The notes beneath the pieces were generated by a model. That model did not search any database. It was given only the letters and a program-made list of their open reading frames with translations, and was not told the origin of the DNA. A stretch of DNA of 64,000 bases, taken from Janibacter cremeus. Lineage in GTDB: Bacteria > Actinomycetota > Actinomycetes > Actinomycetales > Dermatophilaceae. Positions 13,064 to 15,685 of this stretch are shown here, piece after piece. Position 1 is the first letter of the stretch, and every line of letters starts with the position of its first letter. Both the position numbers and the translations under genes were made by a program. The stretch lies in contig NZ_CP115184.1 in the NCBI RefSeq assembly GCF_029395675.1, forward strand, positions 2,294,001 to 2,358,000, given 5' to 3'.

Positions 13064-13954
13064 TCAGTCGGGGGTCGTCACCGTGAAGAGCGCCTGCTGC
13101 TTGGGCGCCCCGTTGCAGGTGAGGACGTGGGCCTCGCTCATCGTGCGGGTCACCAGTCGGCTGTGGACCGAGCCGGCCAGGTCGACGTCCACGCGCCACG
13201 TGCCGGAGCCGAGGTCGGTCGCGGTCGGCTCGGCGACGTCCGCGAGCCGGGCGCCCGGCACCGAGCCGAGCACGTCGTGCACCGCGACCTGGACGACCGG
13301 GGCCCAGCAGCTGCGGCCACGCCAGCGCTCGAGGTCGACCTGTCCGTCGAAGTGGTCCAGCACGACCCGCGGGGCGCTGTCGCCGTCGAGCTGCCCGTAC
13401 ATCGAGCCCTCGGGCAGCAGGGCGGTGTTGCCGGCGAAGCGGTCCCCGCCCAAGTGGGTGGTCTCCCAGACGGCCCCCGGGAGGGCGTCGTCGAGCACGG
13501 CGGCGACGACCCGCCCGTCGATGGCGCAGCAGACGTCCTTGCGGGCGTGGGTGCACACGAGGACGAGGGGCTCCTCGGTCGGGTCGGGCAGGTCGTCGAA
13601 GCGCCCGGCGAGCTCGACGAGGTCCCGGGGCGTCCGCCAGGTGGAGCGACCGATGAGGCCGCGCCGCACGTCGACGAGGAAGACCGGCTGCAGCCCGTCC
13701 GCCTCGACCAGCGGGCCCTCGAGCCGGCCGTGCCGGCGCACCAGCTGCAGGCGGGCGCCGAAGCGGTTCAGCTGGGCGGACAGCTCCCCGGCCACCTCGG
13801 TCAGCGGGTCCGCCTCGATGGGCTTCGCCGGCCACGGCCCGGAGTGCCCGACGACGAACCAGTAGGGGGCGGGCACCGCCGTCCCGACAGGCACGTCCCC
13901 TCGCTCGCGGGCGGCGAGCGAGCACCGGAAGCGGGAGTCTGCGGGAGTGCTCAC
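13064..13954 (-). CDS. Sucrase/ferredoxin-like (Apd1-type) thioredoxin-fold protein
   Basis: The 296-residue protein matches the sucrase/ferredoxin-like family by VLVCTHARKDVCCAIDG and ETTHLGGDRFAGN, which carry the Cys and His residues expected to bind a [2Fe-2S] cluster (inferred from Apd1-type proteins). A C-terminal part ends near CNGAPKQQALFTV. Chosen start is GTG 13954; a TAGGGT box whose TAG is the stop codon of the upstream gene lies 7 nt before it, so the gene may have its own leaderless promoter as well as operon readthrough. It follows the JmjC oxygenase by 10 nt and could supply electrons to it, which is inference. Confidence 0.8.
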   Translation of the reverse strand: MSTPADSRFRCSLAARERGDVPVGTAVPAPYWFVVGHSGPWPAKPIEADPLTEVAGELSAQLNRFGARLQLVRRHGRLEGPLVEADGLQPVFLVDVRRGLIGRSTWRTPRDLVELAGRFDDLPDPTEEPLVLVCTHARKDVCCAIDGRVVAAVLDDALPGAVWETTHLGGDRFAGNTALLPEGSMYGQLDGDSAPRVVLDHFDGQVDLERWRGRSCWAPVVQVAVHDVLGSVPGARLADVAEPTATDLGSGTWRVDVDLAGSVHSRLVTRTMSEAHVLTCNGAPKQQALFTVTTPD

Positions 13955-13961
13955 GTCGTCG

Positions 13962-13967
13962 ACCCTA
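13962..13967 (-). promoter_or_regulatory. TAGGGT box inside the oxygenase stop codon
   Basis: Minus-strand TAGGGT ends 7 nt before GTG 13954; the TAG is also the stop codon of the oxygenase gene. Confidence 0.4.
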
Positions 13968-15197
13968 ACCGGCGCCCGGGAGCCCGGGCAGGGTCCCCAC
14001 CCCGGCGAGGAGCAGGCGACGTGCGAGCGCGTCACCCAGCTCCACGGGCTCGCCCTCGAGCCAGCGGCCCACGATGCGCGCCTCCTCCTCGTCCAGCCGC
14101 AGTCGGCCGGCCCGGGAGAGCAGCAGGTGCGTCTCGCCGGCGCGCTCGATCCGGGCCGCGAGGTGCGACCGCGGTCGCAGTCGCTCGCCCAGCGCCTCGT
14201 CAGCGGCGGTCACGGTGGCGACCGGGGGGACCGGCGCGGGTCGTTGGCCCGCCCGGTGGCGTGCCGCCAGGGTGCGGGCCACCCGGTGCACGTCGACGTC
14301 GGCCAGGGCGTCGAGGAGAGCGGTGCGCACCTGCTCCACCTCGTCCCCGATCTCGTCCGCATCACCGACGTCCACCCCGGGCGGCAGGGAGGTGCGCTGC
14401 TCCGCTCGGGCGAGGACCTCCCTTCGCGCCTGGTCGAGGAGGGCCTCGGCGAGGTGGCCGCGGTGCCACACGTGCACCCCGACGGTCGCGTGCGTGCTCA
14501 CGCCGCCCAGCGCGGTGGCGGCGTGGAGCCAGCCACGGGGGACGTAGAGGGTGTCGCCGGGCCGCAGGGTGACCTCGAGGTGGGGGCGGTCCGACGAGAC
14601 GTCCGCGATCGCCTCGGCGCGCTCCTGCCACGGTTGGTCGCGAAGGGGGTGGGTCAGCACCGGCGGGTGGAGGCGCCACCGCTTCTCCCCCGCGATCTGC
14701 AGGACGAAGACGTCGTGGACGTCGTAGTGCGCGGAGAAGCCGGTGCTCTGCGCGGGGGTGACATAGGCATTGACCTGCACCGGGTGCCCGAGGTCGGCGG
14801 CGAGCTGCTGCGAGAAGTCCAGCAGGGGCGGATGGGTGCGGTGCAGCCCCTGCAGGACGAGGGTGTGCCCCTCGGCGAAGAGCCGCAGCAGGGCGGTGTC
14901 GTCGAGCTGGTCGCTGATCGCCGCGCCGACTCCTCCACCGCGGGTGAAGTCGGCGTCGGGCAGCGTCCGCCCGTCCCGTGCCACCCGCAGGAAGGGGGTG
15001 CGCAGCCCGCGCCGGGAGAGCAGGTCGTCCACGTCGTCGGTCCCGAGCAGGTCGGCGAACGACGCGGGCAGGGACTCCGCCGGGACGTGCCGGGGCTCCC
15101 GGCCCCAGATCTGCGCGAGCCGGTCCGGATCGAGGTCGGTGATGCGACGGAGACCGGTGCACCTCGTCGATGCACCGGCCCCGGGGGTGTCGTTCAC
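13965..15197 (-). CDS. JmjC/cupin-4 family 2-oxoglutarate-Fe(II) oxygenase
   Basis: The 410-residue protein resembles ribosomal oxygenases of the ROXA/MINA (cupin-4) family. The metal triad is visible: His157 and Asp159 in SAHYDVHD and His225 in YVPRGWLHAA. IAGEKRWRLHPP between them is the expected strand region. Known relatives hydroxylate Arg or His of ribosomal proteins, so this one is expected to hydroxylate a protein. GTG at 15197 follows the TGA of the repeat-protein gene without a gap, so translation is coupled. The C-terminal 150 residues form the winged/dimer region of the family. The substrate is unknown; the adjacent repeat protein is a candidate. Confidence 0.85.
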   Translation of the reverse strand: MNDTPGAGASTRCTGLRRITDLDPDRLAQIWGREPRHVPAESLPASFADLLGTDDVDDLLSRRGLRTPFLRVARDGRTLPDADFTRGGGVGAAISDQLDDTALLRLFAEGHTLVLQGLHRTHPPLLDFSQQLAADLGHPVQVNAYVTPAQSTGFSAHYDVHDVFVLQIAGEKRWRLHPPVLTHPLRDQPWQERAEAIADVSSDRPHLEVTLRPGDTLYVPRGWLHAATALGGVSTHATVGVHVWHRGHLAEALLDQARREVLARAEQRTSLPPGVDVGDADEIGDEVEQVRTALLDALADVDVHRVARTLAARHRAGQRPAPVPPVATVTAADEALGERLRPRSHLAARIERAGETHLLLSRAGRLRLDEEEARIVGRWLEGEPVELGDALARRLLLAGVGTLPGLPGAG

Positions 15198-15557
15198 TCA
15201 GGCACTGCCGTCGGCGCCACCGTCGCCGGCAGCACCATCGGCGCCACCGTCGCCGGCACCGCCATCAGCGCCACCGTCGCCAGCAGCGCCATCAGCGCCA
15301 CCGTCACCGGCACCGCCATCAGCGCCACCGTCGCCAGCAGCACCGTCAGCGCCACCGTCACCGGCACCACCGTCCGCGCCACCGTCACCGGCAGCACCGC
15401 CGTCAGCGCCACCGTCACCGGCACCGCCATCAGCGCCACCGTCGCCGGCAGCACCGTCGGCGCCGCCGTCGCCACCGGCTGCGAGCGGCTGATCGGTCGG
15501 CATCCCACCGATCGTCTCGTCGGACATGTCCGGAGTGTCCTGCGGAGGCTGCGTCAT
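15198..15557 (-). CDS. Gly/Asp/Ala nonapeptide-repeat protein (119 residues)
   Basis: After a 28-residue non-repetitive head (with DMSDETIGG and TDQPLAA) the protein is ten copies of GDGGADGAA or GDGGADGGA, mostly alternating, with one extra Ala. A strong Shine-Dalgarno AAAGGAG lies 7 nt before the ATG, and the stop abuts the oxygenase start, both supporting real translation. There is no signal peptide or membrane segment. The 9-residue period recalls RTX calcium-binding repeats (Gly at 1 and 4, Asp at 6), but the position-8 large hydrophobic residue is missing, so RTX identity is doubtful. Function unknown. Confidence 0.7.
   Translation of the reverse strand: MTQPPQDTPDMSDETIGGMPTDQPLAAGGDGGADGAAGDGGADGGAGDGGADGGAAGDGGADGGAGDGGADGAAGDGGADGGAGDGGADGAAGDGGADGGAGDGGADGAAGDGGADGSA
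15201..15473 (-). repeat. 27-bp coding minisatellite, ten units
   Basis: The coding DNA is ten 27-bp units (mostly arranged as 54-bp pairs, encoding alternating GAA and GGA endings) plus one inserted codon. Units are near-identical, so copy number probably changes by slippage or recombination while staying in frame. Confidence 0.85.
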
Positions 15558-15685
15558 GGTGCTTCTCCTTTGCTCTCGGTGGGCGGTACGGATGCACCGC
15601 CGTCATCCCCATGTCTACCCACGCGGCGCCCCCGGCAAAAGCCCCCGGGAGTCCTCGGTCCGCGTGGAGCCTGCCCGGCAGCGGT

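Follow-up and report, generated by a model that had tools for sequence, protein, structure and literature searches.

A three-gene operon in Janibacter cremeus

The operon described here lies in a 64,000-nucleotide stretch of the Janibacter cremeus genome (NZ_CP115184.1, positions 2,294,001 to 2,358,000; hereafter the window), a genome that consists of a single contig of 3.5 Mb. All three of its genes are encoded on the minus strand, which a first-pass annotation made from the sequence alone had left unstated, and together they span positions 15557-13064 of the window. The first gene (15198..15557) has an ATG start and encodes a 119-residue repeat protein, a putative modified precursor, with a Shine-Dalgarno-like sequence, AAAGGAGA (15564..15571, minus strand, read off the sequence), located 6 nt ahead of the ATG. 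The second gene (13965..15197) has a GTG start and encodes a 410-residue JmjC_2 (PF08007) Fe(II)/2-oxoglutarate (2OG) oxygenase, assigned by its Pfam match, by alignment and by a profile match to NO66; its GTG (15195-15197) abuts the TGA of the repeat-protein gene (15198-15200). The third gene (13064..13954) also has a GTG start, lies 10 nt from the oxygenase stop, and encodes a 296-residue Suc_Fer-like protein (PF06999, by Pfam), a putative [2Fe-2S] binder and accessory member of the operon. The first-pass annotation had read the locus in the same way, and its description of a ten-unit Gly/Asp/Ala protein with a strong Shine-Dalgarno sequence, a stop codon touching the GTG of a JmjC oxygenase that carries His157, Asp159 and His225, and a sucrase/ferredoxin-like gene 10 nt further on is borne out in each of these details.

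Within the repeat protein, residues 1-28 (15474..15557, minus strand) form an acidic head, MTQPPQDTPDMSDETIGGMP..., that may serve as a leader, as judged by comparison with the DDDIxT-type heads of its relatives, and residues 29-119 (15201..15473, minus strand) form the putative core of ten GDGGADG(G/A/S)A units. These units begin at residues 29-111 with spacings of 9, 9, 10, 9, 9, 9, 9, 9 and 9, and the core is built of almost nothing other than D, G and A, with no His in the repeats. The repeat protein has no Pfam match, and none of the three operon proteins matches NCBIfam. Codon differences among pairs of the ten units are mostly synonymous (130 of 159, with 29 nonsynonymous), and in relatives the 777 occurrences of DGGADG across 123 peptides draw on 149 distinct 18-mers; the repeat is therefore conserved at the protein level, and the synonymous variation within units and across relatives rules out a spurious repeat of non-coding DNA. 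RTX calcium-binding nonapeptides follow the consensus GGxGxDxUx, with a large hydrophobic residue at position 8, and a repeat of this type was likewise rejected, since the units of the window hold no large residue and have no Pfam match.

The oxygenase matches JmjC_2 with 92.3 bits (cut-off 22), and the three putative Fe ligands of its HxD...H triad, H157 (codon 14727..14729), D159 (14721..14723) and H225 (14523..14525, all on the minus strand), occupy columns that are invariant in 22 of 22 aligned oxygenases. A profile built from these 22 sequences matches NO66 (E 5.7e-38), MINA53 (1.3e-28) and YcfD, the arginine hydroxylase of L16 (5.9e-11). With these JmjC ribosomal oxygenases the enzyme shares the JmjC_2 domain, the triad and similarity over most of the catalytic region. 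It differs from them in being encoded with a repeat protein and, in the case of NO66, in a RTPFLRVAKDG stretch that is widely conserved among the operon oxygenases and absent from the NO66 alignment.

Linkage of the repeat gene and the oxygenase across Actinomycetota

Loci with a match to the oxygenase, 180 in number and 160 after deduplication, were queried for an Asp-rich, small-residue open reading frame (ORF) ending beside the oxygenase gene, with 981 other called genes of 80 named loci as a control (gene calling was rough, with a minimum length near 300 nt, and covered 500 nt upstream; the named loci are the best 80 of 583 confirmed stretches and not a census). Such an ORF lies directly upstream in 143 of the 160 distinct oxygenase loci, as compared with 2 of the 981 control genes, so that the linkage is beyond chance. 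These same counts describe the arrangement looked for in a ribosomally synthesized and post-translationally modified peptide (RiPP) system, namely an encoded precursor-like ORF beside a putative modifying enzyme. The first-pass annotation had named the absence of a repeat ORF upstream of oxygenase relatives as a result that would count against its proposal; the ORF is found there across the phylum. An earlier scan for repeats in the 80 named loci had found them in 76, the others being L109, L122, L132 and L150.

Co-occurrence was also assessed at the level of whole genomes. Matches to the oxygenase at E 1e-3 were obtained in 126 of 186 genomes from the family, with 119 counted as strong and 7 as weak, and 111 of the 186 contain a DNA pattern coding for DGGADGGA. 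Both are found in 109 genomes, the oxygenase only in 10, the pattern only in 2 and neither in 65 (the 7 weak matches being among the latter). The pattern is thus present in 109/119 genomes with the oxygenase and in 2/67 without it (Fisher p ~1e-36, a value that ignores kinship among genomes), and in the two pattern-only genomes, G021 and G127, the matches are apparently out of frame by codon-position GC content. Oxygenase matches were found in 66/396 genomes of an order sample and 64/396 genomes of a phylum sample, both of which overlap with the family. Among the best 80 of 583 stretches are representatives of Janibacter, Streptomyces, Terrabacter, Geodermatophilus, Blastococcus, Nocardioides, Kribbella, Pseudonocardia, Actinokineospora, Rhodococcoides, Paractinoplanes, Herbiconiux and Pseudarthrobacter, and the sources of protein-database matches to two of the peptides include Streptomyces, Amycolatopsis, Mycobacterium, Mycolicibacterium and Leifsonia. 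The system therefore extends beyond this window to many actinobacteria. Where the database entries for the repeat peptides carry a name, it is hypothetical protein or "BatC protein", and no paper was found under the latter name.

The type of core follows the oxygenase tree. Close relatives of the window enzyme are accompanied by DGGA units, often with a His in front (HDGG is present in 75 of 124 DGGA peptides), and distant oxygenases by other Asp repeats, examples of which are TDADADSTDADAD, DSGDSDATQVDPSGSDPAG and ADGTDQGVxGGTYGPRDA. In a tree of 158 of the 160 oxygenases (L180 and L184, of fewer than 240 residues, were omitted), a branch supported at 99% by the Shimodaira-Hasegawa-like approximate likelihood-ratio test (SH-aLRT) separates all 124 DGGA rows, and with them 15 rows for which no peptide was counted, from the 18 rows with other Asp repeats. 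This tree was made by a quick method with SH-aLRT values only, its root serves for drawing only, and L183 sits on a very long branch.

Heads and cores vary differently. An acidic motif, x[DE][DEA][DEQ][IM], precedes the core in 18/19 peptides with other Asp repeats and in 44/124 DGGA peptides, against means of 0.56 and 1.7, respectively, after shuffling of the heads. The count was made without choosing a start codon, and the head MALDDDDITT exemplifies the motif. The acidic head is kept in the deeper relatives while the Asp-rich repeats change type, a pattern that, at the level of sequence, may resemble that of RiPP precursors. The window's own head, MSDETIGG, is only loosely similar to the DDDITT-like motif and falls outside the pattern. 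The first-pass annotation had seen in it a leader-type Gly-Gly, an idea that we abandoned along with export by a C39 peptidase: heads of the form [ILA]GG[VM]P occur in 14/143 peptides, every one of which belongs either to the window's genus or to genus g35, which holds Janibacter melonis, and Peptidase_C39 (PF03412) has no match in the window's genome, in a search whose control was positive in 8 of 14 genomes. After residue 25, Asp makes up 19% of the residues of the 143 peptides, and Cys is absent from all 143, F, W and Y from 137 and Lys from 138; these shares are in part built in, because the peptides were preselected for Asp and small residues, with start codons picked to maximise that score. 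Since the cores are without Cys and mostly without aromatics and Lys, Asp is left as the plausible functional residue, and Asp with small neighbours is common to the core types, so that composition favours the Asp target of the earlier interpretation. Overall, that interpretation keeps its upstream repeat ORF and its preference for Asp and loses its Gly-Gly leader.

Repeats were also found away from the operon. Of 16 genomes in the window's genus, G053 (locus L023) is the only one whose oxygenase clearly has no adjoining repeat ORF, though it retains the oxygenase and the Suc_Fer-like protein; in two others, G057 and G065, the contig ends within the operon. A search of G053 with a shorter pattern identified 24 DGGADG-coding sites. 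Of these, 20 cluster together at a distance of 132 kb, in two neighbouring genes for PRC-barrel proteins (662732-663574 and 663685-664701, minus strand; L208, G053:C1:655500-670500), one of which also carries DUF2382. DUF2382 is present in 3 of the 16 genomes of the genus, and the other two have no such repeats in the loci examined. In a survey of 13 further off-operon places in 12 genomes, a subset of such places, DGGADGGA runs were seen inside membrane-anchored-looking proteins at L210 (G028:C185) and L211 (G061:C121), in genomes that both keep normal operons, and a shorter run was seen in a transporter-like protein at L212 (G071:C225), in a genome that keeps the operon with its oxygenase; the remaining places are apparent wrong frames or single copies. 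These cases suggest that other proteins may acquire the repeat and that the oxygenase may still act on it there. At one further site, G009:C1:2550678-2550809, four DGGADG-coding matches are spaced by 38, 38 and 39 bases and, because of this spacing, probably represent a DNA tandem repeat and not a protein repeat.

Proposed function and its alternatives

We favour, with moderate confidence, the view that this is a RiPP-like protein-modification operon in which the oxygenase hydroxylates a dedicated repeat-protein substrate, most likely at Asp. The repeat protein would be the substrate of the neighbouring cytosolic Fe(II)/2OG JmjC_2 enzyme, itself related to the ribosomal oxygenases, and its acidic N-terminal head, which reads DETIGG in the window and is DDDITT-like in distant relatives, would recruit the oxygenase, which would then work along the tandem repeats, most likely oxygenating C-3 of Asp, so that a single chain could come to carry many beta-hydroxyaspartates. 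The Suc_Fer-like, putative [2Fe-2S] protein would probably supply the oxygenase with electrons or iron. No protease or exporter recurs in most of the 80 named loci, where clusters of neighbours were named by eye, and a classical cleaved and exported RiPP is therefore not indicated, although a housekeeping protease might still act on the peptide; the product is more probably a cytosolic polyanion or metal-binding protein than an exported peptide.

Parts of this scheme have precedents. The JmjC protein BipG is described as hydroxylating Orn in the precursor of the RiPP biphenomycin, and biphenomycin-type systems (BipG, PbsQ, BpmG) share with the operon a JmjC-type or cupin enzyme and a ribosomal precursor. 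As described, however, their clusters add genes for a multinuclear non-heme iron-dependent oxidative enzyme (MNIO), a radical S-adenosylmethionine (SAM) enzyme, an arginase and a protease, and their enzyme targets Orn, whereas in this operon no modifying enzyme other than the oxygenase is obvious and the core consists of Asp repeats in tandem. PMC12710340 reports that, among bacterial proteins, those most closely homologous to the fish and algal JmjC proteins of PF08007 with a RiPP recognition element (RRE) are found in RiPP-like contexts; these proteins have their Pfam family in common with the window oxygenase, and the section of that paper on JmjC-RRE proteins makes no mention of Asp-repeat precursors or of this operon. 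Asp residues are described as substrates of FIH and AspH, which can hydroxylate them at C-3, FIH in ankyrin repeats and AspH in EGF-like domains. The similarity of the operon oxygenase to FIH is weak (E 3e-4). FIH and AspH are not known to be encoded together with their substrates. A search of the full-text literature, with most subscription papers and bioRxiv outside its reach, found no description of an Asp-repeat/oxygenase operon, no occurrence of DGGADGGA and DGGADG only in an unrelated context; the first-pass annotation could not match the operon to a described system. The operon is thus a widespread variant for which no matching description was found, of a kind that is known in outline, given the PF08007 homologues noted in RiPP-like contexts.

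Several observations weigh against the proposed scheme. The nearest characterised enzymes act on His or Arg of ribosomal proteins, not on Asp (MINA53 and NO66 are described as His C-3 hydroxylases, YcfD as an Arg C-3 hydroxylase acting on L16); no match to an RRE or to PqqD was found by sequence in the five oxygenases scanned; the head motif is unmatched in 80 of the 124 DGGA peptides, those of the window's lineage included; a same-strand adjoining Suc_Fer-like gene was not found in 34 of 139 loci; and beyond the oxygenase and the Suc_Fer-like protein, the most widespread family that might be a third partner is present in 20 of the 80 named loci (clusters of neighbours were named by eye, not by family search, and 20 distant loci were inspected by eye only). 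In addition, 17 of the 160 loci have no qualifying ORF. Among these, L132, L172, L183 and L184 seem truly to be without a peptide ORF, and L065, L168, L169 and L171, all of genus g4, have an acidic, non-repetitive ORF in its place. Of the others, L019, L034, L119, L122 and L173 lie at contig ends, with partial repeats in all of these except L034. The sequence of L109 includes a stretch of N, a peptide was seen for L128 in another scan, L150 has a DHGAD repeat, and L023 is the G053 locus described above. L170, which also belongs to genus g4, carries long DHGADGGA-type repeats.

If the repeat protein is the substrate, the chemistry may still be a different one, and modification on Gly, Ala or His, or by desaturation or a cross-link, is the most credible of the rivals, although we consider it unlikely. 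The nearest characterised relatives are His hydroxylases and many DGGA peptides carry the HDGG motif, and PMC12710340 cites a 2OG enzyme that makes macrocycles in RiPPs. Yet His is absent from the repeats of the window and from the position in front of the unit in 49/124 DGGA peptides, and 16 of 19 peptides with other Asp repeats have none beyond residue 20, whereas Asp is present in every core type examined (types that were themselves selected for Asp). It is less probable again that the oxygenase acts on a housekeeping protein, for example a ribosomal one, with the repeat protein as its partner or regulator. Profile similarity to NO66, MINA53 and YcfD, the last described as the Arg hydroxylase of L16, is what would be expected in that case; the distribution of the enzyme, with a strong match in 119 of 186 family genomes and none such in 67, appears patchy for a ribosome modifier, and tandem repeats that vary in copy number and change with the enzyme clade would fit a substrate better.

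In the remaining rival, the repeat protein goes unmodified: it would be a disordered protein, rich in Asp, for ion binding or stress, linked to the oxygenase by nothing more than their common operon. A window core made almost only of D, G and A would suit such a protein, as would the occurrence of repeats within PRC-barrel proteins, but the phylum-wide adjacency, the co-occurrence with the oxygenase and a core type that tracks the oxygenase tree all speak against it, and we regard it as very improbable.

A broader version of the hydroxylation scheme can be offered only tentatively, as we think it more likely wrong than right: the Asp-Gly repeat may be a portable tag, with the oxygenase writing beta-hydroxyaspartate onto any cytosolic carrier protein across Actinomycetota. 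On this broader version the target would usually be the operon peptide, and it could also be the PRC-barrel pair of G053 or the membrane-anchored-looking proteins of G028 and G061. If the tag were portable, it would amount to multi-site protein hydroxylation in bacteria with a dedicated, transferable substrate motif. Hydroxylation of the operon peptide would in turn imply a heavily hydroxylated Asp-repeat protein in many actinobacteria, including soil, antibiotic-producing and mycobacterial lineages, and a compact two-gene system that places many hydroxyaspartates in one protein. An orphan class of JmjC enzymes would thereby gain a directly testable substrate.

The Suc_Fer-like protein, other neighbours and plasmid relatives

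The third operon protein matches Suc_Fer-like (PF06999) with 59.7 bits (cut-off 34.9). Among 139 loci with sufficient sequence, 105 have a Suc_Fer-like gene downstream, no more than 2.6 kb away and in the same orientation, and it is therefore a common, not a universal, member of the operon; one was found in 61 of the 80 named loci and in 16/16 genomes of the window's genus. No variation was seen among 49 sequences at C11, C134, H136, C142, C143, H167 and C280, and these conserved Cys and His residues mark it as a putative [2Fe-2S] binder. A family relative with which it can be compared is yeast Apd1, also a member of PF06999. Proteins of the Apd1/Aim32 type are PF06999-like, as the operon proteins are, and have in common with them the conserved Cys/His set around C134, C142 and H167, but the operon proteins differ from them four residues past H167, where 40 of 49 carry Asp and 9 of 49 Cys. 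Apd1 is described as binding its [2Fe-2S] cluster through a 2Cys2His site. Two residues before H167, Cys is found in 40 of the operon proteins and Thr in 9, and the window protein itself has Thr at this position and Asp four residues after. The residues flanking H167 could mean an unusual set of cluster ligands. No relatives of the Suc_Fer-like protein were found by sequence in the PDB at E 0.1.

Among other neighbours, an ABC-transporter-like protein is encoded in 11 of the 80 named loci, at distances of several kb and on either strand. Within the 150 nt upstream, the mean best match to boxes for IdeR, Zur, FurA, LexA, Rex and sigma-70 was about that of shuffled sequences, with Zur and LexA marginally better. 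One oxygenase locus, L131, comes from a record titled Bacillus sp. AZ43, an unverified organism; its oxygenase falls within Blastococcus in the tree, and the record is probably mislabelled. Relatives of the oxygenase are also found in 134 plasmid records, 78 of them from Streptomyces, and the 15 matches listed (H1-H15) are cupin/JmjC relatives on Streptomyces plasmids, at 28-37% identity.

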